This document shows, in pieces, positions 8,674-23,925 of a DNA stretch of 64,000 bases. A program made the translations under genes and the position numbers. Origin of the DNA: Gammaproteobacteria bacterium. GTDB taxonomy: Bacteria > Pseudomonadota > Gammaproteobacteria > Arenicellales > UBA868. The notes beneath the pieces are model-generated. The model ran no database searches. It was given only the letters and a program-made list of their open reading frames with translations, and had not been told where the DNA came from. The stretch spans positions 1 through 64,000 of the forward strand of contig JAKUQR010000016.1 of assembly GCA_022450155.1 (NCBI GenBank), written 5' to 3'. Position 1 is the stretch's first letter. Each line of letters begins with the position of its first letter.

Positions 8674-8762
8674 GTAAGTTATCCGTGAAGGACGGAGTGC
8701 GGTGCCGTGGAAAACGCGCTGGAAGGTTCTGCCAGGTACTCGATTTGCATTTTCTCAGCGTA

Positions 8763-9125
8763 TTATTCGTCGAAGATCTTGTTGATTACTTCGGCGGCCA
8801 GGTTAAACGCAGGCAGCCCCCGAAACAGGAAAGCAAGTCCTGCAACGGCATGGAGTTCTTCTTTGGTAGCGCCTGAGCGTACAGCTCCCCGGGCGTGAAA
8901 TTCCGATGCCGGTGACACATGAGAGATCAGCACCGCAAACAAAATTAGTTGAGCCGTTTTGACATCAAAACAGTTCGGATACATTGCTTTTTCGCGAACA
9001 TTTTCGATCGCTTCCAGTAGTTCGGGGTCGGTTTCAAGCCCCAAGCGGATGCGATGCTGAATCTTGGGTGGTACAAAGCCAATGAGTTCTTCATAGATCT
9101 TGGAATAAGGGTCAGAGCCGGTCAT
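8763..9125 (-). CDS. Carboxymuconolactone decarboxylase family protein
   Basis: A 120-residue protein (ATG at 9125, behind an AGAGAA site; an upstream in-frame ATG at 9173 would add 16 residues that look non-conserved). It has the all-helical CMD/AhpD fold signature: LGLETDPELLEAIENVRE, then LILFAVLISHVSPASEFHARGAVRSGATKEEL, then a conserved AGLAFLFRGLPAFNLA helix. There is no CxxC motif, so it is not a typical AhpD peroxidase partner. The family includes carboxymuconolactone decarboxylases and many unassigned members near aromatic pathways. It precedes the semialdehyde dehydrogenase in the same direction and probably shares its transcript. Its exact reaction is unknown. Confidence 0.8.
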   Translation of the reverse strand: MTGSDPYSKIYEELIGFVPPKIQHRIRLGLETDPELLEAIENVREKAMYPNCFDVKTAQLILFAVLISHVSPASEFHARGAVRSGATKEELHAVAGLAFLFRGLPAFNLAAEVINKIFDE

Positions 9126-9326
9126 GGTGTTCTCTAGTGTAGTGGGTATACGGTATTCGGGGCAGCGCGGCAATGAGTTACAGGCTGGCGTGACCCATTT
9201 ATACTTTATAGGACTCTACACTCCAACACCACGTAACCGGTTGATATCTGATGCAGCCCAGACTGTGGTTCTATCAGGTAATGCTGACCAGTAGACTATG
9301 GACCGGTTTTTTAATGAGAACCCATC

Positions 9327-9737
9327 ATGTCTTCAAAAACACTGAGTGAAAAAGCGACGCCTCGCGGCACGTATCCCCATATTCGTCGAGCCGGGGATTA
9401 TTTGTTTGTATCAGGGATCAGTGCCCGGCGAGCGGACAATTCTATCGCTGGTGCCGAGGCAGATGATCAGGGCACAGCACGGCTGGACATTCGAATACAG
9501 ACCCGAGCAGTCATCAACAATATAGAGGATATTCTCAGAAGCATGGATTGCACACTGGCCGATATCGTTGATGTGACCACCTTTCTGGTCAATATGAATG
9601 ATTTTGGTGGGTACAATGAAGTTTACGCTGAGTACTTCAGTGAGAGTCGACCTGCCCGAACCACCGTGGCAGTCCATCAGTTGCCCCATTCACATCTAGT
9701 GATCGAAATTAAGGCCACAGCCTACAAGCCTGAATAG
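9327..9737 (+). CDS. RidA/YjgF protein, 2-aminomuconate deaminase-like
   Basis: A 136-residue RidA-fold protein. Unlike housekeeping RidA, it carries features I associate with 2-aminomuconate deaminases (AmnD/NbaF type): [19 protein letters not shown] near the N-terminus, a [17 protein letters not shown] block, [20 protein letters not shown], and a [22 protein letters not shown] end. The expected reaction is hydrolytic deamination of 2-aminomuconate to 4-oxalocrotonate with release of ammonia. It is divergent from the CMD-like and dehydrogenase genes across a 200-bp control region. The dehydrogenase opposite would supply its substrate. The family assignment is from recalled family patterns, not a search. 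Confidence 0.85.
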
Positions 9738-9955
9738 GCTGCGGACGGTTTGTGGTTGTGCAACAGGGCCAGCCAGGCGCCGCAGGTGAGCAGGTCAGCG
9801 ACAGAGTTAACCACCCAATCGGGTTGAGTATTGGCGGTGCCTAGGCCATTCCGGCGCGATTCCCCCCCTCAACACCAGAATACCCTACGCACCTGCTCGC
9901 GATGCGAGGGCGATATCGGTGTAAATTCGATCACCTATCTGGCTTTTTACAGGAT
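9722..9955 (-). pseudogene. Decayed C-terminal remnant of a HAD-IIA family phosphatase
   Basis: Read on the minus strand, the gap after the RidA gene encodes QIGDRIYTDIALASRAGA, an in-frame TAG, then GILVLRG. After a shift of one frame at a run of seven G, it continues GESRRNGL, then PDWVVNSVADLL and a stop at 9722-9724. GDRxxTDI is HAD motif IV, and the ILVLxGE...PDWVVxSVADL end is the usual C-terminus of NagD/p-nitrophenylphosphatase-like HAD-IIA enzymes. The upstream two thirds of such a gene (about 200 codons) are missing, as the frame is closed by a TAA near 9970. One stop, one frameshift and the 5' deletion make it a pseudogene. Its 3' end overlaps the last 16 bp of the RidA gene. Confidence 0.7.
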
Positions 9956-10060
9956 TGGTGGCTTTAGTTTAGTATTCACCAAGTTCTCTTGCCTGTCTTG
10001 AGACAATGTTGAGTTGAGGTTAGGTAGAGCAACTTCTCGAACCACAAAAGGAGGGACGAT

Positions 10061-11269
10061 ATGAAATACAAAAAGGGATTTCTGACTATCGCTGCGGCGG
10101 CAGTGATTGGAGTGTCATCAGTTGCCGAAGCAAAGAACGTCCGCGTCGGGGTCGTATTGCCCTATACCGGCGGGGCTGCCCAATTTGGACAGCAGATCGA
10201 CCGAGGTATGAATCTTTATTTGAGTCTGCATGGTGATCAGTTGGGGGGGCACCAGATCGAACTGATCAAGCGGGACTCAAAACGACCTGGCGGTGACATC
10301 GCCAAGACCGCAGTACAGGAACTGATCACGCGCGAAAAAGTGGATCTGTTGACGGGGTTTGTATTTTCACCCAATGCCATGGCCAGTGCCCCGTTAGTGA
10401 CTCAGGGTAAAGTGCCGATGGTGATCATGAATGCAGGTACCGCATGGATTCCAAGTCTATCTCCCTACATTGTGCGGGTTTCATTCACCATGTGGCAGGC
10501 CGGTGTGCCGATGGGTGAATATGCCAAAAACTCTCTGGACTGCGCTAGCGCGGCCAGTGGTTATACCGACTACCCACCAGGCAAAGACAGCGTCGCTGCT
10601 TTTAAGTTCGGATTCGAAGGTGCGGGCGGTAAGGTCGTAGATGCCATCCCCATGGGCGGACCGCGGGAGGTTCCAGACTTCACACCGTTCTTCCAGCGTG
10701 TCAAAGATGCCAAACCTGATTGTTTTTATGTTTTTGTCCCGGCGGGTAATCACGCCAGTGCCGTGGTCAAGACGTTTTCAGATCTGGACATGGCGGGTGC
10801 GGGTATACGGCTGATTGGCCCTGGCGATATCACCCAAGATACAAAACTTCAGGGTATGGGTGACTCGGCTGTGGGTATGGTGACAGTGCATCACTATTCC
10901 GCCGATTATGAAACGCCGGAAAACCAAGTTTTTGTTGCGGCCTGGAAGGCGGCCTATGGCGCTGATACCACACCTGATTTCATGGGTGTGGCCGGTTACG
11001 ACGGTATGGCAGCAATCGTGCAGGTTATCCGTGAGCTGGACGGTAACATTACAGCCGATGCAACCATGGATATCCTCAAAGGCTGGAAGTTCGACAGCCC
11101 GCGTGGACCCATCATGATCGATCCGGAAACTCGCGATATAATTCAGGATCAACATGTCCATCTGGTGGTGAAGTCCGGTGGACGGCTGAAGATCAAAGTA
11201 CTGAGTACTATCCCTCAGGTGAAAGATCCCTGCAAGGCGAATCAGCTGGGCAAGTGCGCCAGTAACTGA
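10061..11269 (+). CDS. Branched-chain-type ABC transporter substrate-binding protein
   Basis: Periplasmic binding protein of the LivJ/Peripla_BP_6 class, 402 residues. It has a signal peptide (KYKKG start, alanine-rich core, cleavage after AEA near residue 24). The mature start VRVGVVLPYTGGAAQFGQQIDRG is the standard first strand and helix. A very strong AAGGAGG site lies 6 nt before ATG. It leads a five-gene importer (binding protein, two permeases, two ATPases). Binding proteins of this class carry amino acids but also aromatic acids and amides. Its position between two aromatic catabolic modules suggests an aromatic or aromatic-amine ligand, but this is inference. Cysteines at the C-terminus (DPCKANQLGKCAS) may form a disulfide. 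Confidence 0.9.
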   Translation: MKYKKGFLTIAAAAVIGVSSVAEAKNVRVGVVLPYTGGAAQFGQQIDRGMNLYLSLHGDQLGGHQIELIKRDSKRPGGDIAKTAVQELITREKVDLLTGFVFSPNAMASAPLVTQGKVPMVIMNAGTAWIPSLSPYIVRVSFTMWQAGVPMGEYAKNSLDCASAASGYTDYPPGKDSVAAFKFGFEGAGGKVVDAIPMGGPREVPDFTPFFQRVKDAKPDCFYVFVPAGNHASAVVKTFSDLDMAGAGIRLIGPGDITQDTKLQGMGDSAVGMVTVHHYSADYETPENQVFVAAWKAAYGADTTPDFMGVAGYDGMAAIVQVIRELDGNITADATMDILKGWKFDSPRGPIMIDPETRDIIQDQHVHLVVKSGGRLKIKVLSTIPQVKDPCKANQLGKCASN

Positions 11270-11276
11270 TTTCGAT

Positions 11277-11304
11277 TCCCGCCGGGTGCGCTCACCCGGC
11301 GGGA
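11277..11304 (+). promoter_or_regulatory. Strong intercistronic hairpin
   Basis: A perfect 12-bp stem, TCCCGCCGGGTG (11277-11288) with its reverse complement (11293-11304), closes a 4-nt CGCT loop. It starts 7 bp after the binding-protein stop. There is no T run behind it, so it is probably a 3' mRNA stabiliser or a partial terminator that keeps binding-protein expression above that of the permeases, as is common in such operons. Confidence 0.75.
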
Positions 11305-11391
11305 TTATCGGATTGTTCCAGCAAGTCTAGGCACGCTGGCAAGATCCGACCGTACTCATTCCTGACATAGTCCCGATTTGCTGGTGCCCGC

Positions 11392-12267
11392 GTGAGTCAG
11401 CTTAGCAACATCATTATCAGCATCATATTTGATGGCCTGGCCTATGCGATGATTTTGTTTATCATCTCCGTGGGTTTGTCTGTCACGATGGGACTCATGG
11501 GTTTTGTCAATCTTGCCCATGGCGTGTTTGCGATGGCTGGCGGTTATTTTGTTACCAGCCTGATGTCAGTTGTCGGGGTACCATTCATTCCTGCTCTGCT
11601 TATCGCTGCAGTGGGTGTGGCTGTCGCCAGTCTTCCTTTTGAACGCTTTCTTTACGCACCGCTGTACAAAGCCGGGGAGCTTGATCAGGTGCTGTTGAGT
11701 ATCGGTCTGGTATTTATGGCATCGGCCAGCTTTACTTACTTTTTCGGTCCCGACCCTGTCCCAATCAAAGTACCTGACGGCCTTCGTGGTCAAGTCGATC
11801 TGGGATTCCGAAGCTTTCCGGCCTACCGTCTGTTTATGATTGCTATTGGGCTGAGCATGGCTGCAGGAATCTGGTACGGATTTGAAAAGACACTGATAGG
11901 CGCAAGGATCCGTGCTGCTGTAGACAATCGTATGATGGCTCAATCGGTGGGTATCGATGTTGATAGGTTGTTTCTTTTTACCTTCGCATTGGGTAGTGGC
12001 CTGGCAGCGCTGGGCGGGGGGCTTGCAGTTGATATTCTTGGACTCAGCCCCAGCTTCGCCATCCAGTACCTGGTACTTTTCCTGATTGTGGTTGCCGTGG
12101 GCGGTCTGGGCACGATCAAAGGCACGTTCGTGGCGGCTCTGGTCCTGGGTGTGATTGACAACGGTGGAAAGTATTTGTGGCCTGAAGGTGGCGCCTTCTT
12201 TATCTATGCAGTCACTATTGTGATCCTGCTATTGAAGCCCGCGGGGTTGTATGGTCGACACGGATAA
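11392..12267 (+). CDS. ABC transporter inner-membrane permease (LivH-type)
   Basis: A 291-residue membrane permease of the branched-chain amino-acid type, with about eight hydrophobic segments. The conserved GLSVTMGLMGFVNLAHGVFAMAGGY near the N-terminus is the LivH/LivM signature, and VVAVGGLGTIKGTFVAALVLGVID is the cytoplasmic coupling region that contacts the ATPases. It starts at GTG 11392. Its 3' end overlaps the second permease gene by 17 bp. It forms a heterodimeric channel with the next gene product. Confidence 0.9.
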   Translation: MSQLSNIIISIIFDGLAYAMILFIISVGLSVTMGLMGFVNLAHGVFAMAGGYFVTSLMSVVGVPFIPALLIAAVGVAVASLPFERFLYAPLYKAGELDQVLLSIGLVFMASASFTYFFGPDPVPIKVPDGLRGQVDLGFRSFPAYRLFMIAIGLSMAAGIWYGFEKTLIGARIRAAVDNRMMAQSVGIDVDRLFLFTFALGSGLAALGGGLAVDILGLSPSFAIQYLVLFLIVVAVGGLGTIKGTFVAALVLGVIDNGGKYLWPEGGAFFIYAVTIVILLLKPAGLYGRHG

Positions 12268-13264
12268 AAAAACCATGGTGCCCTCCGAGGAGTCCAGAGT
12301 TTTCTTTTCCCGGCGCAGTCGCCTTAAGTGGTGGGAAGGTTTGCCCTGGGCACTGGCCATTGCAGCGTTTTTTGTATTGCCGGACTACATGGCCTTTGGC
12401 ACGCAAGTACTGATCACTATTATTTTCGCACTTTCACTCGATCTCGTGGTTGGTTTTGCCGGCGTAGTAACTCTGGGTCATGCCGCCTACTTCGGCGTGG
12501 GCGCTTACACGGCGGGTATGGTGTCGGCACATTTGGGCTGGACCGAGCCGATTTCGGCGCTGCTACTGGCGGGGTTTGTTGCGGCAATTGTCGGATTCAT
12601 TTCGGGCGCTGTGCTGCTGCGCTATCATGGTCTGACGTTACTGATGTTGACCCTGGCGACAGCGATCTGCCTGCAGGAATTTGCGAATGTCAACGAAGAT
12701 TTCACGGGTGGTTTTGATGGGCTGACCGGAGTGAGTTTTACGCCATTACTGGGCTTGTTCGAGTACGATCTTTGGGGGCACACCTACTATTGGTATTCGT
12801 TGGTTGTACTATTTCTGGTGTTCGTTGTGGCGAGAATTATGGTGAATTCCCCCTTTGGCATGTCGTTGATCGGAATTCGCGAAAACTCTGCACGGATGCA
12901 TGCAATCGGAACGCCAGTTTACCGACGCTTGGTTACCGTTTACGGCGTGTCTGCGGGTATCGCAGGACTCGCTGGCGGTCTTTTTGCGGAGTCCAACGCC
13001 TATGTCACACTGGATGTTTTGAGTTTTGCTCGTTCGGGCACGGTCCTAATTATTTTGATTCTAGGTGGCGTCGGTCGATTGTACGGTGCCTTCGCCGGCG
13101 CGGTGGTCTACCTGGTTCTAGAGGATGAACTGGCCAAGATGAGTCCGGAGTTCTGGGAATTCGGGGTCGGATTACTCCTTGTCCTCACAGTGATGTTTGC
13201 CAGAGGAGGTTTACTCGGAATCTTTGACCGACTGAGAAAGGTATTTAGCAGGGCAACGCCATGA
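12251..13264 (+). CDS. ABC transporter inner-membrane permease (LivM-type)
   Basis: A 337-residue permease. It has a short cytoplasmic N-terminus (basic, about 30 residues), then membrane segments including LDLVVGFAGVVTLGHAAYFGVGAYTAG, the LivM family signature, and a coupling segment ILILGGVGRLYGAFAGAVVY. It overlaps the upstream permease by 17 bp and the ATPase gene by 4 bp (ATGA), so translational coupling is likely. It partners with the LivH-type subunit in the same importer. Confidence 0.9.
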   Translation: MVDTDKKTMVPSEESRVFFSRRSRLKWWEGLPWALAIAAFFVLPDYMAFGTQVLITIIFALSLDLVVGFAGVVTLGHAAYFGVGAYTAGMVSAHLGWTEPISALLLAGFVAAIVGFISGAVLLRYHGLTLLMLTLATAICLQEFANVNEDFTGGFDGLTGVSFTPLLGLFEYDLWGHTYYWYSLVVLFLVFVVARIMVNSPFGMSLIGIRENSARMHAIGTPVYRRLVTVYGVSAGIAGLAGGLFAESNAYVTLDVLSFARSGTVLIILILGGVGRLYGAFAGAVVYLVLEDELAKMSPEFWEFGVGLLLVLTVMFARGGLLGIFDRLRKVFSRATP

Positions 13265-14016
13265 GTGATCCGGTGCTTCAGGCTGTTGGGTTGTACAAAA
13301 ATTTCGGGGCGCTGGAAGTAGCCCATAACATTAACTTCACACTGAAGCGGGGTGCGCGTCACGCGCTGATCGGACCTAACGGCGCGGGTAAGACGACTTT
13401 TATCAATCTGATTACCGGTGTTCTGACTCCGTCCAGTGGGCAGATCCTTCTAAATGGCCAGGACATCACAGGACTGGGTCAGGCAGAGAGAAGTCGTCGT
13501 GGCATAGCCAGAACCTTCCAGATCAACCAGTTGTTTCGGGGCCTAACTGTTCTTGAAAACGTGGTCTTGGCGATCGCCGAGCGTCAGGGTATCGCATCCT
13601 CGATGTTTCGGCCGTTATCTTCTTATTCTGAAGTAACAGATGAGGCAATGGAGTTGTTGGGTAATTTTGAGTTAAATGAAGATGCTCTACGGCGTATTGA
13701 TGAGCTGCCCTATGGCCGGCAACGTCTGGTTGAGATTGTCATTGCATTGGGACAGCGACCAAGCGTTCTATTGCTCGACGAACCGGCTGCCGGTATTCCA
13801 TCTTCCGAGAGCCAGCACATCCTGGATGCAGCCAGCGCCCTGTCCAGCGATATTACGGTGTTGATCATCGAACATGATATGGAAATTGTCTTCAGTGTTG
13901 CGGATTACATCACTGTTTTAGTCTCCGGTGCTGTATTGACCGAGGGAGAACCCGAGGTAATTGCAGCAGATGAGAGGGTGCGTGCGGTCTATCTCGGAGA
14001 AGTCGATCGTGGCTAG
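13261..14016 (+). CDS. ABC transporter ATP-binding protein (LivG-type)
   Basis: A 251-residue ATPase subunit. It has Walker A GPNGAGKTT, a Q-loop in ARTFQINQLFRGLTVLENV, and the Walker B region VLLLDEPAAGIPSSES. The signature motif is atypical: the usual LSGGQ position reads LPYGRQRLVEI, a variant known in LivG-type subunits of this class. The H-loop His is in VLIIEHDMEIV. It overlaps the permease gene by 4 bp and the next ATPase gene by 8 bp. It powers import together with the LivF-type subunit. Confidence 0.9.
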   Translation: MSDPVLQAVGLYKNFGALEVAHNINFTLKRGARHALIGPNGAGKTTFINLITGVLTPSSGQILLNGQDITGLGQAERSRRGIARTFQINQLFRGLTVLENVVLAIAERQGIASSMFRPLSSYSEVTDEAMELLGNFELNEDALRRIDELPYGRQRLVEIVIALGQRPSVLLLDEPAAGIPSSESQHILDAASALSSDITVLIIEHDMEIVFSVADYITVLVSGAVLTEGEPEVIAADERVRAVYLGEVDRG

Positions 14017-14725
14017 TTCTGGCCTGTCGTTGGTATCCGTGAGTGCCGGTTATGGTGAGACCGTTGTCTTAGAGAATATAGACCTGGAGATCCTGGCGGG
14101 GGAGGCTGTCAGTGTCATTGGGCGCAACGGGGTGGGGAAATCGACTCTGCTGATGACTATCATGGGTCACACTGATCTGCACAGTGGCTCAGTGCATTTG
14201 AATGGAAAGGAAATCACTGCTGCCAAACCCTGCCAACGTGTTTGGAACGGACTGGGGCTGGTGCCACAGGAGCGGCTCATATTCCCTTCCCTGACCGTTG
14301 ATGAAAATTTGGCGGTCGCGGTACGCGCCGGCTCCTGGACGAGTACGCGCGTGTATTCAATGTTTCCCCAACTCGATGCCCGCCGGCAGAACCTCGGCAA
14401 CCAGCTGTCAGGTGGCGAGCAGCAGATGTTGGCGATAGGGCGGGCACTGGTTGGGAATCCGAAAGTGTTGTTGATGGACGAACCCTCAGAAGGTCTTGCA
14501 CCGGTCATCGTTGAAGAGCTGCAGTCAGTCATAAATCGTTTGCGTGAGGAGTCGTCGATGACGATTATTTTGGTGGAACAAAATAGTCGGGTGGCACTGG
14601 AATTTTCTGAGCGTTGTATCGTTATGAATCGTGGCCGGGTTGTCCGAGATGGAAGCAGTGAGGCCCTCAGGCAGGATCAGACTCTGCTTGAACGCCTGAT
14701 TGGAGTGGATAGCAGTTTGCTGTGA
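14009..14725 (+). CDS. ABC transporter ATP-binding protein (LivF-type)
   Basis: Second ATPase of the importer, about 238 residues from GTG 14009. Longer in-frame starts upstream lie deep inside the LivG-type gene and add non-conserved sequence. Walker A is GRNGVGKST, the signature is LSGGEQQMLAIGRAL, Walker B is VLLMDEPSEGLAP and the H-loop region is ILVEQNSRVAL, all typical of LivF. It is the last gene of the importer operon and converges on the flavin hydroxylase gene 48 bp away. Confidence 0.9.
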   Translation: MASSGLSLVSVSAGYGETVVLENIDLEILAGEAVSVIGRNGVGKSTLLMTIMGHTDLHSGSVHLNGKEITAAKPCQRVWNGLGLVPQERLIFPSLTVDENLAVAVRAGSWTSTRVYSMFPQLDARRQNLGNQLSGGEQQMLAIGRALVGNPKVLLMDEPSEGLAPVIVEELQSVINRLREESSMTIILVEQNSRVALEFSERCIVMNRGRVVRDGSSEALRQDQTLLERLIGVDSSLL

Positions 14726-14773
14726 TCCATGCCGAACGGTATTCGGGTTCGAGCGTGGGCTGAATCGATTAGG

Positions 14774-16390
14774 TCAGGGCTTTAATCGGGTATAGAACTG
14801 TTTATCGAATAGTCTGTTGAAACAGTTCGAATCAGAAATATTCTCCACCAGTACGACAGCTGCGACGTAGTGGTCGGGTCGCAACAAAATGCCAGAGCCG
14901 GGCGCATCGGCAAAGGCTCGTTCTATTTCACCGTCTAGATCCCGTGCTTCGGCGATGCTGGGGTCCTTGGTTGCCATAAAACTGCCTGGCGTGATCCAGA
15001 GCCAGTTGATCGCAGCGTTCAGACCCAGATAGCATTGCGGCAGCCGATCGGGTTTGTCAGTAGGGTTTCCAAAGAAAAGGCAAGTGAAGCGATTTCCTAT
15101 CAAGTCATCGAGCAGGGTGATGGAGCGGTCGGGCAGTTCTAATCGTGGCTGTATAAACAAGCGGCCTACCCATGGCGAAGTACCTGCCACCAGACCGTCT
15201 TCCAACACTGGTTTAGGTTTGAACTTCATCTGTGTGACGTAATGCTGGACAGGTGGTATGAACTTAAGCAGGATAAGGCCCCATTGAACGAACCAGGCGC
15301 GTAGACGCCCGGGTGGTATCATGAATCGCCCCATCAGGACCGCCAGGTCAATCAGCGCCTTGGCATGTGGTTTGCGCTCAATCTCGTAAGTCTCCAGCAG
15401 GGTATCTGGGAATCCGGCTCGTAGTACCTGGGTGGCCTTCCACGCAAAATTGTGGGCGTCCCGGATACCGCTGTTCATACCCTGGCCGGCAAATGGCGGA
15501 CTCAAATGGGCAGCATCACCGAGAAGAAAAACCCGGCCGCTGCGCCAACTTTCTGCGCTGCGGGCCTGAAAGGTGTATACCTGCCGACGGATGATGTTCG
15601 GCAATCGATCCTCGCCATGGGTCAGAAGAAGTTCATTGACAAAAGATTCGCTGTCGGCCACATCGTTACTTTCGTGGTCATGAAGCATGAACTCAAAGCG
15701 ACGCGACTGATAGGGTCCGGGTAGTGAGATTGCCGGCCGGACGGTATCGCAGAAGACCTGGGTCTGTCGGAAATTGTTACTGGTATTGACGGTATCCACG
15801 ATCAACCAACGCTGTTCGTAGGTCGAACCTTCCAGCGGAATATCGAGCATACGGCGCAAGGTGCTCTGACCACCATCACAGGCAGCCAGGTAATCACAAC
15901 TGACAACAATGGTGTCCTCTCGATGGGGTCGAACGACCAGTTTGACCGAATCTACAGTCTGTTCGACTGATTCCAGTGTGTGGCTGAACCAGGTTGTCAC
16001 CTGTTCAAAACGTGTCAAGCCCGTGCGCAGCGTGGCCTCTAGACGGGGTTGCTGGAAGGCATTTCTGCGCGGGTAGCCGAATTCACGGGTCTGGGGTTCC
16101 ACTTTGGCAAAACACCGGCCAGAAGGTGTGAAATACCAGGAACCGTAGTCCTGGGCGACGTCCGCCAGTACCTCTTCTATCAGACCGACTGACTGGACTG
16201 TTCTCAGGGCCTCATCGTCAATGGATACGGCTCTTGGCTGCGAGACAGTCGATTCATGTTGCTCGACCAGCAGTGTCTTTATGCCGTCCTGCCCAAGCAG
16301 ATTTGCCGTAATCAAGCCGGTCGGACCAGCACCGACCACCACTACTTGATAATGTGTGTCTTGGGTTCCAACCACTTTCGCTTGAACCAC
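14774..16390 (-). CDS. MhpA-like FAD-dependent aromatic hydroxylase
   Basis: Class A flavoprotein monooxygenase, 538 residues. The dinucleotide-binding motif VVVGAGPTGL is near residue 20, the DG-type segment is in YLAACDGGQSTLRR, and the second FAD motif GRVFLLGDAAHLSPPFAGQGMN is near residue 290. These, with the SIDDEALRTVQSVGL block, are typical of 3-(3-hydroxyphenyl)propionate and related phenol hydroxylases, which use NAD(P)H and oxygen to make catechols. It is the last gene of a five-gene operon with a UbiD/UbiX decarboxylase pair, an extradiol dioxygenase and a FAH-family hydrolase. A logical role is to hydroxylate the phenol produced or used by the decarboxylase, giving the ring-cleavage substrate. 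The exact substrate is unknown. Confidence 0.88.
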   Translation of the reverse strand: MVQAKVVGTQDTHYQVVVVGAGPTGLITANLLGQDGIKTLLVEQHESTVSQPRAVSIDDEALRTVQSVGLIEEVLADVAQDYGSWYFTPSGRCFAKVEPQTREFGYPRRNAFQQPRLEATLRTGLTRFEQVTTWFSHTLESVEQTVDSVKLVVRPHREDTIVVSCDYLAACDGGQSTLRRMLDIPLEGSTYEQRWLIVDTVNTSNNFRQTQVFCDTVRPAISLPGPYQSRRFEFMLHDHESNDVADSESFVNELLLTHGEDRLPNIIRRQVYTFQARSAESWRSGRVFLLGDAAHLSPPFAGQGMNSGIRDAHNFAWKATQVLRAGFPDTLLETYEIERKPHAKALIDLAVLMGRFMIPPGRLRAWFVQWGLILLKFIPPVQHYVTQMKFKPKPVLEDGLVAGTSPWVGRLFIQPRLELPDRSITLLDDLIGNRFTCLFFGNPTDKPDRLPQCYLGLNAAINWLWITPGSFMATKDPSIAEARDLDGEIERAFADAPGSGILLRPDHYVAAVVLVENISDSNCFNRLFDKQFYTRLKP

Positions 16391-16431
16391 GCATTTCGAA
16401 GACTGATGGATCAGTCTTTTCCAGTGCCAGC

Positions 16432-17286
16432 CTAGTTCACCGGTTCCGCTTCAACAGGATTCCTAAGGATTCCGATTTTGCTGATTTCAACTTCTACAAC
16501 ATCACCTGGTTTCATGAAAACCTGAGGGTCGCGTTTAAAGCCGACACCGCCCGGAGTTCCACTGACAATCACATCGCCCGGCTCAAGGCGCGTAAACCGG
16601 GAGATATAGTTGATCAGGACGGGAATCGTAAATATCAAAAGATCGGTTGTCGCGTGCTGCATGACTTCGCCGTTGAGGCGTGTGGTCAGGGTCAAGGTGC
16701 TGGGGTCGGGTATCTGGTCGGTGGTGACGAGCCACGGGCCGAATGGACCGGTATGGCGAAAATTCTTGCCTGGTGTGAACTGGCTGGTATGCCGCTGCCA
16801 GTCTCGAACGGACCCATCGTTGTAGCAGGAATAGCCTGCGACGTGTTCCAGCGCTGTATCTTCAGGAATCTTCCAGCCACCAGAGCCAATGATTACGGCG
16901 AGTTCCCCTTCGTAGTCGAAACTGGTTGATTCCGCTGGTCGCCACATGGCTTCTCCATCACCAATCTGGGTATTTGCGAATCGAGTGAACAGGGTAGGGA
17001 ATGCGACTTCGGGACGTCCAGTTTCTTTTCGATGACTCTCATAATTAAGACCCACACAGATGATCTTATCGGGGTTGGTAATAGGCGGTAGAAGCTGGAC
17101 ATCGCTCAGAGCGACCCGCGGTGCGGCGTCGGCACTGCTTGCAATCAGTTTATGATAATCATCACCGATCAGGGATTTAAGGTCAGGATGGGTATTACCC
17201 AGCACTTGGCCAATGTCGGTAATAATGTCGTTATCGACAGATCCGTAACTTTGTTCCCCTGAGCGGGTGAATGTGACCAGTTTCAT
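16432..17286 (-). CDS. Fumarylacetoacetate hydrolase family protein
   Basis: A 284-residue FAH-fold enzyme. Metal ligands are expected in the FDYEGELAVIIG segment (the two Glu) and the YSCYNDGSVRDWQ segment (the Asp). GLNYESHRKETG gives the entry loop, and VIVSGTPGGVGFKRDP is the conserved oxyanion/lid region. Family members hydrolyse C-C bonds in acylpyruvates, hydrate or decarboxylate ring-cleavage products. In this operon it follows the extradiol dioxygenase by 9 bp, so acting on its ring-opened product is likely. 2-hydroxymuconate-type hydrolysis and 4-oxalocrotonate decarboxylation are both conceivable; sequence alone does not decide. Confidence 0.85.
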   Translation of the reverse strand: MKLVTFTRSGEQSYGSVDNDIITDIGQVLGNTHPDLKSLIGDDYHKLIASSADAAPRVALSDVQLLPPITNPDKIICVGLNYESHRKETGRPEVAFPTLFTRFANTQIGDGEAMWRPAESTSFDYEGELAVIIGSGGWKIPEDTALEHVAGYSCYNDGSVRDWQRHTSQFTPGKNFRHTGPFGPWLVTTDQIPDPSTLTLTTRLNGEVMQHATTDLLIFTIPVLINYISRFTRLEPGDVIVSGTPGGVGFKRDPQVFMKPGDVVEVEISKIGILRNPVEAEPVN

Positions 17287-17295
17287 ACTATTCTC

Positions 17296-18132
17296 CTAGC
17301 TGCGAAGGTATCCGGGTCCCCACAGGTTCAATGCCTTTTCACCATGCGGCCAGATGCGTACCTGGCGCTCACAGGTTAACTGTTCAAGTTCAGCCGAGAT
17401 CTCCACCCAGTTACCGTCAGGATCGTTTACCATAAAAAAAAGGTTGTTGCCGGGGCCATGTCGTCCCGGGCCCCAGACGATTTTAACATCCAGACCGGCC
17501 AGATGGTCTGCCCAGTCCCGGATGAGGCCCCATTCTCCGGCTTCATAGGCATGATGGTCCAGCCGTTTTTCGCTGGCTTTGAAAAAGGCAAAGCTGTGGT
17601 GTTCATTATCGCTGTTCAGAAAACAGGCGCGAAGATCGCCGGTTTCATCTTCAACACGGTCTGTAATGCCAAACCCCAGTTGTCCTGTATAGAAATCGAG
17701 CATCGGGGCCATTTCGTCTGTAGCCACGACGAGGTGCTGCAGCCGGGCTGGCATCGAGGGATCATTTGAAAAATGAGTAGAACGGCCGAACACCAGTCGA
17801 TTGCTATCCGGGTCCGTCAGTGAGAATGCGTGCTCAGAAAACAAAAGGCTTGGCGATGCATCCAGGCTGACGCCGGTACGTTCCAGGTTGCGACGAAGTT
17901 GCTTAAGGCCTGCATCTGAGTCGAATCCATAAGCAGCGAACCCCAGTTTTCGCGACTCACCACTTGCAATCAGCAGTTTTCTTCCCGCACCTTCAAGAAT
18001 AATCAGTGGCCCCTGTGTCGTTTGGGTCATGCGCAGAGCTTCGCAGTAAAAGTCAGCCAGATTGGTCGGATCTTCTGATTCGAGCATTATGTGGTCGAGC
18101 CGTGCAGGGTTATCTTGCCAATGAATCGTCAC
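17296..18132 (-). CDS. Type I (VOC) extradiol dioxygenase
   Basis: A 278-residue two-module vicinal-oxygen-chelate protein like catechol 2,3-dioxygenase and BphC. The Fe(II) ligands expected in the C-terminal module are present: H133 in LQHLVVAT, H193 in LDHHAYE and E244 in NWVEISAE. The N-terminal module is shorter and degenerate, as usual. It should open a catechol-type ring beside the hydroxyls. It is 17 bp downstream of the UbiX-like gene and 9 bp upstream of the FAH-family gene, so it is co-transcribed. The substrate would be the catechol made by the MhpA-like hydroxylase or released by the UbiD-like enzyme. Confidence 0.87.
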   Translation of the reverse strand: MTIHWQDNPARLDHIMLESEDPTNLADFYCEALRMTQTTQGPLIILEGAGRKLLIASGESRKLGFAAYGFDSDAGLKQLRRNLERTGVSLDASPSLLFSEHAFSLTDPDSNRLVFGRSTHFSNDPSMPARLQHLVVATDEMAPMLDFYTGQLGFGITDRVEDETGDLRACFLNSDNEHHSFAFFKASEKRLDHHAYEAGEWGLIRDWADHLAGLDVKIVWGPGRHGPGNNLFFMVNDPDGNWVEISAELEQLTCERQVRIWPHGEKALNLWGPGYLRS

Positions 18133-18149
18133 GGGTTGCAGCCTGATGA

Positions 18150-18731
18150 TTATTTCCCGAGGGGTCCCTGCCAGCGTTCGAACAGATCTTCGGGCAGTTC
18201 AATGTCGAACTGATCAAGTACCCGGTTCACAGTCTGATTTACCAGATCGTCAATAGTTGCAGGTCGATGATAGAAAGCGGGCATTGCCGGTAGAAGCGTC
18301 GCACCGATTTCTATCGAACGTGTCATCAGTCTTGTGTGTCCGAGGTGTAGTGGTGTTTCCCGTAGGACCAGCACCAGTTTTCGTTGCTCCTTGAGTACCA
18401 CATCAGCTGCACGTACCAGCAGATTGTCTGCATAGCTATTGGCGATTCCGGAAAGCGTCTTTATCGAGCAAGGAATGACCGCCATACCGGTTGTTTGGTA
18501 AGAACCCGACGAGACACAGGCGGCGATGTCATGATCTTGAAACACCTGGTCCGCCAGTTTTTCCACCTGGTCCACTTTATAGTTTGTCTCCAGCAGTATC
18601 GTGCGCTTGGCAGCCTTGCTGATGACGAGGTGGGTGTCGATCTCCGTCAGCGTCTGAAGAACCTCAAGCAGGCGGATGCCATAGATCGCGCCACTGGCGC
18701 CGGAAATTCCGACGATAAGGGGTTGTTTCAT
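18150..18731 (-). CDS. UbiX-like flavin prenyltransferase
   Basis: A 193-residue flavoprotein that prenylates FMN to make prenyl-FMN for UbiD-type decarboxylases. It has the GISGASGAIYGIRLLEVL start, the HLVISKAAKRTI helix, the VIPCSIKTLSGIANSYADNLLVRAADV block and the LVLVLRETPLHLGHTRLM segment of the UbiX/Pad1 family. Its ATG overlaps the stop of the UbiD-like gene (ATGA). This tight coupling with a non-ubiquinone operon indicates a dedicated cofactor supply for the adjacent decarboxylase. A housekeeping ubiX may exist elsewhere. Confidence 0.9.
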   Translation of the reverse strand: MKQPLIVGISGASGAIYGIRLLEVLQTLTEIDTHLVISKAAKRTILLETNYKVDQVEKLADQVFQDHDIAACVSSGSYQTTGMAVIPCSIKTLSGIANSYADNLLVRAADVVLKEQRKLVLVLRETPLHLGHTRLMTRSIEIGATLLPAMPAFYHRPATIDDLVNQTVNRVLDQFDIELPEDLFERWQGPLGK

Positions 18732-20386
18732 CCCCTGACCAGCTCGATTCTGGCCTTTAGTGTGGCCTGGTCGTTGGCTGCTTTGGCCAGGCGCGACCGT
18801 TCCTTTGCGCCCCAGGTTCCAGCATGGTATTGGGTATAGCGTACATCAAGGCGGATGCGGTCCTTGAGCGACGGTCTACCGCTGTGCCGACGGCTGGTAC
18901 CAACATCATTTCGGATTCTATCTTTGAGCGAGGGGCGGGTCGCGTGCGCTACGGTTACCCTGATATCGGCTGCGATTCGTTCTTTCAGCGGCAGGCTTTC
19001 TGCTTGAGGTCGCTCGATTTCCGGTACCTGGATCACATAGGCGTCGATATCAACTGATTTATAGTTGGCTCTATCGTATTCAACGGTATGTGGATAAGGC
19101 CGACAACAGTCAAATCCCACCTTCGTACCGAGGTAGTCCGGAAATGTGGGATTCAGCCCATGACCGAAGCTGTTCTCTATGGTCACGATACCGGTGCTCG
19201 CGTTAAGACGCGTGGCCATCGCCCATTCGACGTCGGTTGAACTGCGAATATCGACGTCTTCATCGACGACGGTGACCATCTTCAGTGGTGGAAAGGCGCT
19301 GAAGGTGGCCATGATCGCCTGTTTAGACCAGCCTGCGCGTTTCTGTTCAAGTTGAACGACAGCATGGTAGAACCCACAGCCGCCATGGCTGAAATAGACA
19401 TCTCGGGTCCCTGGAACCTGACGTTGCAGGGTCGCCAATACATTAGCTTCTCCCAGCAGCCCAACTGAATTCCATACTTCACTGCCGGATAAGATGGTCT
19501 GGAAAATTGGATCAGGCCGTGCGTGAATTGCACGGACATGCACCACTGGGCGAGGCTCACGATTTGCGTAGTAGCCAGTGACTTCTGCAAAAGGGCCTTC
19601 ATCACCGAGTTCGCCTGGAATCATTTCGCATTCCAGCGCGTACATTGCGTTGGCCACAATGTGCACCGGTAGGGTACGTCCCTGAACCAGCTCGAGTGGT
19701 GCACCGTGAAACTCGCTTGCAATTCCGAGTTCGTCGGTATCCGGTGGCGCAGCTTCAGCCGGTGTAGCAGCCGCGAAATGCACACCCGGGCCAACACCAC
19801 AATTCAGGGAGAAAGTTAAGGATTCATTCCGCTCCTTTGCTTTTTCAAGGTACAGCCCCAGATGCCGGCCTGCGTCGATATTGATGTGAAGGGTGTCTTT
19901 GTTGACGACCATGAACCTTTGAATGGAAGCGTTGCGCACTCCGGTTTCTGGATCTCGTGCGATGACAACCGCGGCGTCGAAATAAGGTCCTCCATCTTTC
20001 ATGGCGTGAATCGGAATAGGCAGGGCTGAAAGATCCAGCGGGTGTGCACCCCCATCGAAAATCGGTCCGTGTTCAACCATGACTGGCGCTACAGGATTTT
20101 TCTGCCAGTTCTGGATACAGCCACTGACAAAGCCGGGCAGAGCGGCCTCTTCTTGTGCCATGAGTTGCGCCAGCAGTTCTCTTGACCAGTACAGGCCAGT
20201 GAACACGGGCACGTCGTAACCTTTTACCTTTTCGAACAGTACCGCCCGCGGTTTCGATTCGAAGTGGGCAGCGATGCCGGCAAGGTCATGTTTTAGGTCA
20301 ACCTCCGAGGTCACGCGGGTCAGTCGGCCACACGAGTCTAGGTGGTCGATGATGGTTTTCAGATCGGCTAGATGATTGGTAGTCAT
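18728..20386 (-). CDS. UbiD-family prenyl-FMN decarboxylase with C-terminal repeat tail
   Basis: Non-oxidative (de)carboxylase of the UbiD family. The 552 residues exceed the usual length of about 480-500. The core includes the IQRFMVVNKDTLHINIDAGRH block, the metal/prenyl-FMN region around EMIPGELGDEGPFAEVTGYY (the conserved E-x-x-P-G-E-x-x-D-E-G-P-F motif), and the FSHGGCGFYHAVVQL and VVDEDVDIRSSTDVEWAMATR segments. After about residue 463 the protein continues with three imperfect repeats built on PSLKDRIRxDV and a partial fourth near the end. I know of no UbiD with such a tail. It leads a five-gene operon with its UbiX partner. The likely reaction is decarboxylation of a hydroxyaromatic acid feeding the extradiol dioxygenase; the ring type is unknown. 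Confidence 0.9.
   Translation of the reverse strand: MTTNHLADLKTIIDHLDSCGRLTRVTSEVDLKHDLAGIAAHFESKPRAVLFEKVKGYDVPVFTGLYWSRELLAQLMAQEEAALPGFVSGCIQNWQKNPVAPVMVEHGPIFDGGAHPLDLSALPIPIHAMKDGGPYFDAAVVIARDPETGVRNASIQRFMVVNKDTLHINIDAGRHLGLYLEKAKERNESLTFSLNCGVGPGVHFAAATPAEAAPPDTDELGIASEFHGAPLELVQGRTLPVHIVANAMYALECEMIPGELGDEGPFAEVTGYYANREPRPVVHVRAIHARPDPIFQTILSGSEVWNSVGLLGEANVLATLQRQVPGTRDVYFSHGGCGFYHAVVQLEQKRAGWSKQAIMATFSAFPPLKMVTVVDEDVDIRSSTDVEWAMATRLNASTGIVTIENSFGHGLNPTFPDYLGTKVGFDCCRPYPHTVEYDRANYKSVDIDAYVIQVPEIERPQAESLPLKERIAADIRVTVAHATRPSLKDRIRNDVGTSRRHSGRPSLKDRIRLDVRYTQYHAGTWGAKERSRLAKAANDQATLKARIELVRG
18815..18994 (-). repeat. Three tandem 20-residue repeats in the tail of the UbiD-like protein
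   Basis: Residues about 465-484, 485-504 and 505-524 align as LPLKERIAADIRVTVAHATR, PSLKDRIRNDVGTSRRHSGR and PSLKDRIRLDVRYTQYHAGT. Each unit is exactly 60 bp, with no gap. A further ATLKARIELV near the C-terminus looks like a partial fourth copy. The units are amphipathic and basic, consistent with short helices. Confidence 0.85.
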
Positions 20387-20440
20387 ATCCGTATCCCGGC
20401 GATGTCCTGTTGATTTGCGAAAAAATCGACGATCACCGCC

Positions 20441-20569
20441 TCAAGATAGCCCAAAGATGTCATAATTTTTTGAGTGGCAGTATCAGCATAAGTATAAAGC
20501 CCCAGCAAATCAAGATAGTTACAATGCAGACCGAAACTAAATTCTGGCCTGCTGACCACTATCTTGATT
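20441..20569. promoter_or_regulatory. Three copies of TCAAGATAG upstream of the UbiD-like operon
   Basis: TCAAGATAG occurs at 20441-20449 and 20510-20518 in direct orientation, and inverted (CTATCTTGA) at 20559-20567. The latter two are the cores of a perfect 12-bp inverted repeat, 20508-20519 with 20558-20569, separated by 38 bp. They lie in the 529-bp non-coding gap 20387-20915 that precedes the UbiD-like gene on the minus strand. The spacing suggests several half-sites for one regulator. No regulator gene is adjacent. Apart from this and the promoter beside it, I see no gene or element in the gap. Confidence 0.6.
20485..20513 (-). promoter_or_regulatory. Candidate sigma-70 promoter of the UbiD-like operon
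   Basis: Read on the minus strand, TTGATT (20508-20513) and TATGCT (20485-20490) are spaced 17 bp apart. The -35 box overlaps one TCAAGATAG copy, and a second copy lies downstream near the start of transcription, an arrangement typical of repression. It is about 100 bp upstream of the decarboxylase ATG. Confidence 0.45.
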
Positions 20570-20915
20570 CTGATGACAGGAGGCCCAGGCATAACTGGTC
20601 TTCAGCCAATTCGAAAGATGTCAAAATCGACCAGGTTAGACCACCTTGTTGCCCATTTCTCAAATAACTTTTCTTCTTCTGTCCCCATCAACTGAAAACA
20701 TGTGTTCCGACTTTTATCCACCCACGAGTTCAGATAATTAAGACCATTTGGAAGCATCCGACCCTATGAGTTTAGTCGTGAATACACCTCGTCATAATGA
20801 CCTGGTTTAAAGGTCTCAACTACCCTATATTGTTTCAATGGCATAGCCTTTGGTGGGAAGTTAGAAAGTCGTTTCCAGGCAAGAATAGACGCTGCCCATG
20901 TAGTGGTTTGTTTGA

Positions 20916-21950
20916 TCATTGCGTTGGCCCGACGCAAGTAACCACGGACTCGTTCTGTTGGCCAAAAAAGAACGACTTTGCGTTAAGACCGAGAATCTTT
21001 GATTTCTCTTCTGGGGAAATACGGGTGGCTGAACGTATCAGTGCGCCCATGTCCTGTTCGCCCAGTGGGAAAGGGTAATCCGTACCGAACATCACCCGAT
21101 CTACACCCATCACATCAACCAGCAGACGCAGGGCCGCTTCGTCGAAAACCGCAGAATCGACACTGAACCGAGATGTATAACTCGATGGGAGACTGGGACA
21201 TTGTTCGCGAACAATGTCGCGCTGACGCCAGGCATTGTCCACCCGGCCGAGCAAAAACGCGAAGCTGCCGCCGCCGTGGGCGAAGCACAACTTGAGAGAT
21301 TCTGGAAGTCGTTCAAAAGCGCCGGAAAGAATCAGATACAGTATAGAAAGTTGGGTCTCCGCCGGCATTGCGACCAGCCACTGCATCATGTAGCGGTCCA
21401 TTCTTTCCCGACCCAGCATGTCCCAGGGATGGACCAGTACAGGAACGTCTATGCTGGCACAATGCTGAAGAAAAGCAATAAGTCCTTCGTCATCAAGATC
21501 CCGGTCGGCAACATGATTGCCAATCTGTACCCCGAGATGGCCTTGATCTACCGCCCGCTCGAGTTCACGGCACGCAGCATCTGTATCCTGCAGGGGCACT
21601 TGAGCGAGTGCTGTGATGCGCCCGTTTGATTGGGCGCACATCTCCAGTGCCAGGTCGTTGAACAAACGGGCGCAATTCTCAGCTTCACTGGGCTTGCGCT
21701 GATAGGCAAAGAGCAATGGGGTTACACACATGATCTGATGGTGAACACCATCACGGTCCATCTCTTCGAGTCGTTTACTGATATCCCAGCAGGCAGAGTA
21801 CACGGGTCTGTACTCGCGCTCACCCAGCATCAGCATACCGCGATTGTGATCGAGGTGTTTCAGCCAGGGCCAGTCCGGAGTTCCGAACCGGGTTTCCAGA
21901 TCCGGCCAAGTCTCTGGCAGAAAGTGGCTGTGGATGTCAATTGTCTCCAT
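20916..21950 (-). CDS. nbaD: 2-amino-3-carboxymuconate-6-semialdehyde decarboxylase (ACMSD)
   Basis: Amidohydrolase-fold, zinc-dependent decarboxylase of 344 residues that converts aminocarboxymuconate semialdehyde to 2-aminomuconate semialdehyde. The metal and catalytic residues are present: H7 and H9 in DIHSHF, H174 in LVHPWDM, H225 in FAHGGG and D291 in GTDYPF. The HLDHNRGMLMLGEREYRPV start and the W-D-I-S-K-R-L-E-E-M-D segment are characteristic of the ACMSD subgroup. It starts 9 bp after the 3-hydroxyanthranilate dioxygenase stop, so the two form one transcript. The downstream semialdehyde dehydrogenase would be the gene at 7.2-8.7 kb. Together they belong to kynurenine/3-hydroxyanthranilate catabolism. 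Confidence 0.93.
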   Translation of the reverse strand: METIDIHSHFLPETWPDLETRFGTPDWPWLKHLDHNRGMLMLGEREYRPVYSACWDISKRLEEMDRDGVHHQIMCVTPLLFAYQRKPSEAENCARLFNDLALEMCAQSNGRITALAQVPLQDTDAACRELERAVDQGHLGVQIGNHVADRDLDDEGLIAFLQHCASIDVPVLVHPWDMLGRERMDRYMMQWLVAMPAETQLSILYLILSGAFERLPESLKLCFAHGGGSFAFLLGRVDNAWRQRDIVREQCPSLPSSYTSRFSVDSAVFDEAALRLLVDVMGVDRVMFGTDYPFPLGEQDMGALIRSATRISPEEKSKILGLNAKSFFFGQQNESVVTCVGPTQ

Positions 21951-21959
21951 GGTTAAATC

Positions 21960-22505
21960 TCAGACAACGGCCCATCCGGCGGGTGGTTCTTTACCCGGAT
22001 GAATTGTCCCACAGTACGGACAGCGTTTGTGTGTTTCGTCTTCATAGAAAGCGTCAAACAATGGCGGGAGGTCTTCGACGATGTCCTTGAGCTCTATTTC
22101 CACTCGATGTACCAGCTGACCGCAGTCGAAGCAGAACCACTCGAAGCCGTCTTTCATTCCGGAATGCCGGGCGCCTTCCACTACCAAACCGATCGAATCG
22201 ACGACCGGCCGCTGAGGAGAATGGCGGACGTGTGCTGGTAGAAAAAAGACTTCGCCTTCACGTATGGGAATATCGTAAATCTGGCCGTTTTCAGAGACCT
22301 TTAATAGCATGTCTCCCGCAAATTGGTAGAAGAATTCTTCAGCCGGGTCATCGTGGAAATCAACTCGCTGATTGGGGCCACCGACCACCATCACCACCAT
22401 GTCAGAATGCTCGTCGAAGAGATGTCTGTTTGCGACTGGGGGCTTGAGCAGATGCTGGTGCCGTTGTATCCAGTCCTTAAAATTAAATGCTGCGCGCTGT
22501 GTCAT
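21960..22505 (-). CDS. nbaC: 3-hydroxyanthranilate 3,4-dioxygenase
   Basis: Cupin-fold Fe(II) dioxygenase that opens 3-hydroxyanthranilate to aminocarboxymuconate semialdehyde, 181 residues. The catalytic iron ligands H51, E57 and H95 are present (HDDPAEEFF and AHVRH segments), with substrate-binding R99 and E110. The bacterial-type rubredoxin-like second metal site is complete: C125 and C128 in CFDC, C162 and C165 in CPYC. These positions coincide with those known for the Cupriavidus enzyme. It leads a two-gene transcript with ACMSD. A GAGGTG ribosome site lies 5 nt before ATG and can be drawn into a hairpin. Kynureninase and kynurenine monooxygenase are not in the window, so the source of 3-hydroxyanthranilate is elsewhere. 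Confidence 0.95.
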   Translation of the reverse strand: MTQRAAFNFKDWIQRHQHLLKPPVANRHLFDEHSDMVVMVVGGPNQRVDFHDDPAEEFFYQFAGDMLLKVSENGQIYDIPIREGEVFFLPAHVRHSPQRPVVDSIGLVVEGARHSGMKDGFEWFCFDCGQLVHRVEIELKDIVEDLPPLFDAFYEDETHKRCPYCGTIHPGKEPPAGWAVV

Positions 22506-22686: not shown

Positions 22687-23925
22687 TCAGCCGAGGTCGC
22701 CCGCTGCAATCTGTCCAGACTTGACCACACAAACGGGTTGTGGTGCGCCGATGGGGTAACACAGTTCGGCGGGTTCTGTGGCATTCCATAGCGCAAAATC
22801 GGCCCGTTTTGTCGGTTCCAGTGTGCCTCTGTCGTGAAGCACCCCAAGGGCCAGTGCGGCTGCTGCGGTGACGCCTCGCAAAGCTTCCTCGGGTGTCAGC
22901 GCGAAAAGTATGCACGCCATGTTCAGCGCCAGAAGAATAGACTCCATTGGCGAGCTTCCCGGGTTCATATCGGTCGCAACGGCAATATCCACGCCGCACT
23001 TACGGAACGCCTTGACCGGTGGCCGTGTGGTCTCGCCAAGATAGTAAAAAGCACCGGGTAGCAGCACTGCTACGGTGCCGCCGGTGGCAAGTGCTTCTGC
23101 ACCAGCTGCGCTGGTGTATTCAAGATGGTCAGCCGATAACGCAGAAAATTCCGCAGCCAGGCTGGCACCGCCGGAATCCGACAACTGATCGGCGTGGAGC
23201 CTGACGGGCAGACCTAAGTCAGAAGCGGCTGCGAATACCTGTCGGGTTTGATCGGGGCTGAATGCAATCGTTTCACAGAACGCATCGACGCTGTCGATCA
23301 GGGATTCAGAGGCAATCTCCGGCAGCATATGCTGACAAACGTGGTCAATATAGTTGTCAGGCTGGCCAGAATACTCTGGCGGTAATGCGTGAGCACCCAG
23401 AAACGTTTTGTGAACAGACACTGGCAGCTCGCGTTCGAGTCGCTGAGCGACTCTTAATATCTTCAATTCAGTACTGGTATTGAGTCCATAACCACTTTTG
23501 ATCTCTATGGTGGTGATGCCTTGATTGATCATCCGCTGAAGACGTTGCCGAGCGGCGTCAAACAAAACATTTTCGGATTCATTTCGAGTTGCTTGAACGG
23601 TCGACTGGATACCACCTCCCGCTGCAGCAATGTCGGCATATGACGTACCGGTCAGTCGCAGTTCGAATTCGTTTGCTCGATTGCCGGCATAGATCAGGTG
23701 GGTATGGCAGTCGATAAGACCTGGTGTGATTAGGCGGCCGCCACAATCAATTCTTTTGCAATCAAGGTCTCCAGCAGTCAGACCGATGGAGTCAGCCGCC
23801 CCAATATTCTGGATATGTTCGCCGGCAACGATAATAGACCCGCGCTCGATCAGACCGTAAGGCCCGGATCCGGCCTGCATGGTGGCAATCCGGGCGTTTT
23901 CCCAGATGGTCATGTTATCTGACAT
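22687..23925 (-). CDS. hutI: Imidazolonepropionase
   Basis: Hydrolyses 4-imidazolone-5-propionate to N-formimidoyl-L-glutamate, the third step of histidine degradation. Length 412 is normal. The amidohydrolase metal motif is GLIDCHTHLIYAGNR. The RLTGTSYADIAAAGGGIQSTV block, typical of HutI, and VHKTFLGAHALPPEY follow, with the later metal ligands in VRLHADQLSDSGG and SADHLEYTS, and a VATDMNPGSSP active-site loop. It follows a RidA-family gene by 27 bp on the same strand. hutF and hutH are divergent. The 181-bp gap after it, before the dioxygenase gene, contains no intact gene. Confidence 0.95.
   Translation of the reverse strand: MSDNMTIWENARIATMQAGSGPYGLIERGSIIVAGEHIQNIGAADSIGLTAGDLDCKRIDCGGRLITPGLIDCHTHLIYAGNRANEFELRLTGTSYADIAAAGGGIQSTVQATRNESENVLFDAARQRLQRMINQGITTIEIKSGYGLNTSTELKILRVAQRLERELPVSVHKTFLGAHALPPEYSGQPDNYIDHVCQHMLPEIASESLIDSVDAFCETIAFSPDQTRQVFAAASDLGLPVRLHADQLSDSGGASLAAEFSALSADHLEYTSAAGAEALATGGTVAVLLPGAFYYLGETTRPPVKAFRKCGVDIAVATDMNPGSSPMESILLALNMACILFALTPEEALRGVTAAAALALGVLHDRGTLEPTKRADFALWNATEPAELCYPIGAPQPVCVVKSGQIAAGDLG

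Follow-up and report, generated by a model that had tools for sequence, protein, structure and literature searches.

We identified, in a 64,000-nucleotide stretch of a Gammaproteobacteria contig (the window), a gene for a UbiD-family decarboxylase whose ordinary enzyme core is followed by a tail built on three in-register copies of a 20-residue unit. This repeat tail is a variant confined to one lineage and is new within the reach of our literature searches: the searchable portions of the open-licence PMC literature yielded no repeat tail or C-terminal extension on a UbiD decarboxylase. The helices of the tail may serve in docking or assembly, with a neighbouring subunit or a partner protein as their target, a reading to which we give an even chance of being correct. 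The features of the locus are listed in Table 1.

Table 1. Features of the ubiD-ubiX locus, in window coordinates; residues are those of the UbiD protein.
Feature	Coordinates	Strand	Remarks
ubiD-family decarboxylase gene	18728..20386	-	552 aa; Pfam and TIGR00148 matches over cut-offs
UbiD core, residues 1-454	19025..20386	-	AnInD 7P9Q match; end of tail-less orthologues
C-terminal tail, residues 457-552	18731..19018	-	Not in AnInD, L043, L055; present in L002, L003, L007
Repeat unit 1, residues 465-484	18935..18994	-	In-register 20-residue unit
Repeat unit 2, residues 485-504	18875..18934	-	In-register 20-residue unit
Repeat unit 3, residues 505-524	18815..18874	-	In-register 20-residue unit
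Post-repeat C-terminal segment, residues 525-552	18731..18814	-	3-4/20 identities to units
ubiX-family flavin prenyltransferase gene	18150..18731	-	Start overlaps ubiD stop by 4 bases (ATGA)

The ubiD frame is a single intact ORF, and its assignment to the UbiD family in the initial annotation was confirmed by Pfam, by TIGR00148 and by the match to AnInD, the indole-3-carboxylate decarboxylase of Arthrobacter nicotianae. The Pfam domains UbiD_N, UbiD and UbiD_C all lie inside residues 13-427, with scores above their cut-offs (PF01977, 162.1 against 23.3; PF20696, 97.7 against 24.2; PF20695, 48.1 against 24.3), and TIGR00148 scored 266.7 bits against a cut-off of 244.85; by these profiles the protein is a member of the UbiD family. 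Across 23 aligned sequences, R157 and E263 are invariant and E268 is at least 90% conserved, and we take these residues to be the catalytic Glu-Arg-Glu, equivalent to those of Fdc1. The enzyme core is ordinary and IndD-like. It ends near residue 454, a few residues from where the tail-less orthologues L043 and L055 terminate, and the last 96 residues are absent from AnInD, in agreement with the earlier view that the tail lies beyond a normal UbiD core. At E<=0.001 the window genome (G000, 95.5% complete) has one place that matches the UbiD family, and the search turned up no second UbiD that would serve quinone synthesis.

Three repeats of 20 residues and 60 bp had been proposed in the tail, and all three were recovered. 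Matched against itself, the tail peaks at a period of 20 with a score of 104 (1000 shuffles reached at most 45), and the tails of the orthologues L002 and L007 scored 91 and 87 at this period. The L003 tail matches itself best at an offset of 40, that is two units (score 51; shuffles at most 41), which indicates that its units have diverged further. Pairwise identity among the window units is 7, 9 and 12 of 20 residues, or 28, 29 and 33 of 60 bases, and Tandem Repeats Finder listed no array at the tail repeats; the low identity and the missing array mark the duplication as old. When 11 units from four genomes were aligned (a twelfth, identical to another, was omitted), positions 3, 6, 7 and 10 were L, R, I and D in all 11, within a wider pattern L-K-[DE]-R-I-x-x-D-[VIM]-R that has exceptions at K, at [DE] and at the last R. 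The partial fourth repeat of the initial annotation did not hold up, since the residues after unit 3 are out of register and share few identities with the units (Table 1). An LKxRI-like stretch near the C-terminus was considered as a fourth unit and rejected: it is out of phase, and its L is P in the tails of L002, L003 and L007. The final codons of the tail overlap the start of ubiX.

To learn about the distribution of the tail among relatives, genome contigs were scanned, which yielded 37 loci encoding UbiD relatives; three of them (L002, L003 and L007) share the window tail. A match at E<=1e-100 was present in 6 of the 109 genomes of the order, and four of these six carry the tail; the four fall into two genera of the window's family, of which 33 genomes were searched. 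The tail-less orthologues in G052 and G057, from another family of the same order, end no more than a few residues away from the core end. Among 398 genomes of the phylum, no further match at E<=1e-120 was obtained except in the window's own genome, and plasmids held no whole-protein relative at E<=1e-60. A homology search with the tail alone, as had been proposed, found it in four genomes of one family, and the concern that it might be a common feature of UbiD relatives was not borne out. Two further observations concern the matching genomes: G002 has an additional copy, which is partial and sits at the end of a contig, and at L007:4001-5514 (G003:C26) the frame of the ubiD core is broken around residues 359-395, through an assembly error or recent decay, with the tail open and constrained.

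Searches for the tail in other settings gave little. No copy was found on other proteins of the same genome (E<=10), the four tails gave no Pfam match except one of 12.4 bits at chance level, no PDB sequence matched the tail at E<=10, and PADLOC matched no family. A tail profile reached a best non-self E of 0.0211 in the 109 genomes of the order, which is not convincing, and in 369 genomes of the class it gave weak matches only, in 25 non-self genomes at E 0.00255-0.0991 per genome. Seven of these weak loci were opened: the third-best non-self match of the class-wide search (L064) is YqeY, and the others, including the best (G307/L062), yielded no identification.

The C-termini of the other relatives consist of unrelated tails of many lengths. 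The C-termini of this UbiD subfamily are labile, with the window tail as one version among them. The UbiD relative at L013:4001-5914 has a C-terminal repeat of its own, with a DDDPDAWIARPQPA-type unit, a period of 30 and a score of 124 (shuffles at most 68), that is unrelated in sequence to the window tail; contig ends truncate the L013 and L016 loci. The subfamily may thus have gained repeat tails on more than one occasion. At seven of the 37 loci (L004, L005, L006, L010, L015, L020 and L037), UbiD ends in GG[ASQ]AM after a linker that varies in length and sequence. This ending could be a short C-terminal recognition peptide; a ribosome-binding site for ubiX was rejected as its origin, because no ubiX follows and the stop codons and downstream sequences differ.

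Selection on the tail was estimated from pairs of orthologues. Between the window and the 90%-identical orthologue L002, omega was 0.065 for the core (bootstrap 0.04-0.09), 0.30 for the tail (residues 457-546; bootstrap 0.16-0.55) and 0.23 for the repeat units alone (0.10-0.49); in this pair the constraint on the tail is 2-5 times weaker than that on the core. Tail omega was 0.14 (0.06-0.27) between the window and L007 and 0.08 (0.02-0.20) between L002 and L007, the latter against 0.22 (0.06-0.56) for 57 neighbouring core codons. Against L003, where synonymous sites are saturated or nearly so, the tail is 43% identical and the core 83%, and unit positions 3-12 agree at 18 of 29 sites and the other unit positions at 10 of 30. 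These comparisons indicate that the tail is under purifying selection, but loosely, and mostly at one pattern per unit. The earlier suggestion of an old duplication under selection thus receives support from the tail omega below 1 and from the retention of the units, with their L, R, I and D, in a 73%-identical orthologue.

An AlphaFold model of the full-length protein (23-sequence alignment) had a mean pLDDT of 76.8, with tail blocks at about 46-67, and placed tail helices at residues 467-482, 487-499 and 507-551. Folded alone from a four-row alignment, the tail formed helices at tail positions 11-27, 31-46 and 51-95 (mean pLDDT 78.5, pTM 0.33). In both models a helix starts at the L of each unit (residues 467, 487 and 507; tail positions 11, 31 and 51). 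Each unit is therefore predicted, with modest confidence, to form one short helix, and the models leave the packing of the helices unfixed. A Foldseek search with the tail model returned no fold match better than E 9.6, and the helical hydrophobic moments of the tail were not above those of shuffled sequences.

The docking or assembly reading draws on the in-register units beyond shuffles, their presence in four genomes, the purifying selection, the helices that start at the unit L, and the contact between UbiD arm and monomer described in the available part of PMC8988006. According to that part, AnInD is a hexamer whose C-terminal loop contacts the adjacent monomer, a helix or loop at the C-terminus of UbiD enzymes touches the prFMN domain of the monomer next to it, and movement of the domains is suggested to form part of catalysis. 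The tail would then amount to three short helices grafted onto the C-terminal arm that contacts the adjacent monomer in solved relatives, and these helices would dock on a neighbouring subunit or a partner protein; the enzyme is probably a hexamer, and the tail was probably gained once. Against docking stand the low tail pLDDT, the pTM, hydrophobic moments within those of shuffles, a constraint weaker than that of the core, the close orthologues L043 and L055 without a tail, and the lability of the relatives' C-termini. Domain motion, subunit contacts and cofactor maturation all matter in UbiD enzymes, as far as the available parts of PMC8988006 and PMC10865409 go, and the tail would offer a natural, selected and removable helical element, in which full-length, truncated and naturally tail-less forms can be compared.

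The main rival is tolerated accretion, in which C-termini vary freely and an extension was added, duplicated and, having no dedicated partner, kept under mild constraint only, for example for solubility or for the coupling of its translation to that of ubiX. It is rather unlikely on our estimate, and it accords with the unrelated tails of many lengths on relatives (the 30-residue repeat of L013 among them), with a tail omega above that of the core and with same-order orthologues that lack the tail. An omega well below 1 in three comparisons argues against it, as do the L, R, I and D that stay invariant in every aligned unit across two genera.

The tail could also capture UbiX or prFMNH2 and ease cofactor hand-off, in place of a chaperone such as LpdD. 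Certain UbiD enzymes require maturation help, according to the available text of PMC10865409, and the 4-base overlap between ubiX and the ubiD stop is shared by the window, L002 and L003. The adjacency of UbiX was rejected as a trait specific to the tail, since ubiD genes whose tails are different (L010, L011, L013 and L015) likewise have UbiX-like motifs immediately upstream, and the Pfam and PDB searches of the tails showed no likeness to a known maturation factor. We therefore regard hand-off as improbable; for the binding of UbiX suggested in the initial annotation, nothing specific was found.

YqeY begins with a helix similar to the tail unit. When a profile of the unit was searched in six frames of 109 genomes, 15 self matches (four genomes) and 93 others were obtained at E<=1. 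The best 11 of these 93 are N-termini of YqeY genes (E 6.7e-4 to 0.0063 per genome), which belong to one family and hence are not independent; ten further YqeYs among the weaker matches bring the total to 21 of 93, and the first match that is not YqeY has an E of 0.0157. One reversed-profile control on the same 109 genomes gave a best E of 0.0079, with none at or below 0.0063 and no identification for its hits. Alignment of the tail with 31 YqeYs by hhalign scored 27.7, against at most 25.4 in 200 column shuffles, with a probability of 28.6% over 16 columns. The conserved positions of these YqeYs (PF09424), L K. R I.. D M K, match the unit pattern L K. R I.. D V/I/M R, so that L3, K4, R6, I7, D10, M11 and K12 of the unit correspond to conserved positions of YqeY helix 1. 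The likeness is limited to about 15 residues, and the remainder of YqeY is missing from the window tail. None of the four tails matched the YqeY domain (PF09424) at E<=10, and the unit profile matched no PDB chain, although YqeY structures exist. YqeY was located in 83 of the 109 genomes, with 62 YqeYs outside the unit-profile matches, including those of G000 and G007, which both carry the tail; the YqeY of the host itself reached only 4.0 bits. As far as sequence comparison goes, the resemblance appears real, and over some 15 residues ancestry and convergence are inseparable.

YqeY is a conserved protein of obscure function. A three-copy recognition motif resembling YqeY helix 1, through which the decarboxylase would join a partner complex or compete for YqeY's partner, has a slim chance of being the role of the tail. 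In the accessible text of PMC4027206, removal of the YqeY domain of yeast GatB abolishes activity and the domain is modelled in contact with tRNA, and in that of PMC12487887 a member of the GatB/YqeY superfamily acts as a bridge in a complex I from yeast. If functional, the resemblance would give a handle on the binding target of the first helix of YqeY. It is equally hard to credit that a basic tail (22 K/R vs 11 D/E in 96 residues) binds nucleic acid or a membrane surface and so localises the enzyme. The likeness of the unit to YqeY helix 1, together with the tRNA model of the GatB domain (PMC4027206, accessible text), would fit such binding, but that likeness is short, the helical moments are within those of shuffles and no known binding motif was found; the targeting role raised earlier likewise gained no support. 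Finally, an assembly or frameshift artefact, a concern of the initial annotation, is next to impossible: among the four genes with the tail, that of L007/G003 does have a broken core frame, a sign that these drafts contain errors or decay, but the same tail with the same ending recurs in four genomes and shows an excess of synonymous changes, and the three independent genomes besides the window's own rule out a frameshift.

Around ubiDX (window 7198-22505) lie genes like those of the 3-hydroxyanthranilate / 2-aminomuconate route. The 3-HAO gene scores over its NCBIfam cut-off, and the neighbours also include an ACMSD-like amidohydrolase, an aldehyde dehydrogenase, a RidA-type protein, an FAD hydroxylase and extradiol-dioxygenase-like and FAA-hydrolase-like genes. 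The UbiD enzyme may feed an aromatic acid into this route, and its gene neighbours point to the ring cleavage of a compound of the aminophenol type instead of the substrate of AnInD. Inside an amidohydrolase gene that is HutI-like by its position next to an aromatic amino acid lyase gene, a 27-base unit is repeated at window 22896-22947 (1.9 copies with 76% matches).

Known partner systems of UbiD differ from the tail. VdcD and LpdD are small partner proteins that bind to a UbiD enzyme or help it; as described in the available text of PMC8379154 and PMC10865409, on which this comparison is based, they are separate proteins of other folds and not repeats at a C-terminus. The nearest solved structure to the window UbiD is that of AnInD (PDB 7P9Q), which shares the UbiD core (phmmer E 1.5e-176, residues 7-452 of the window UbiD) and is the top Foldseek match of the window protein, with 59% identity over 443 columns. 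AnInD lacks the repeat tail: its PDB chain has 461 residues, and the alignment stops at residue 452 of the window UbiD.
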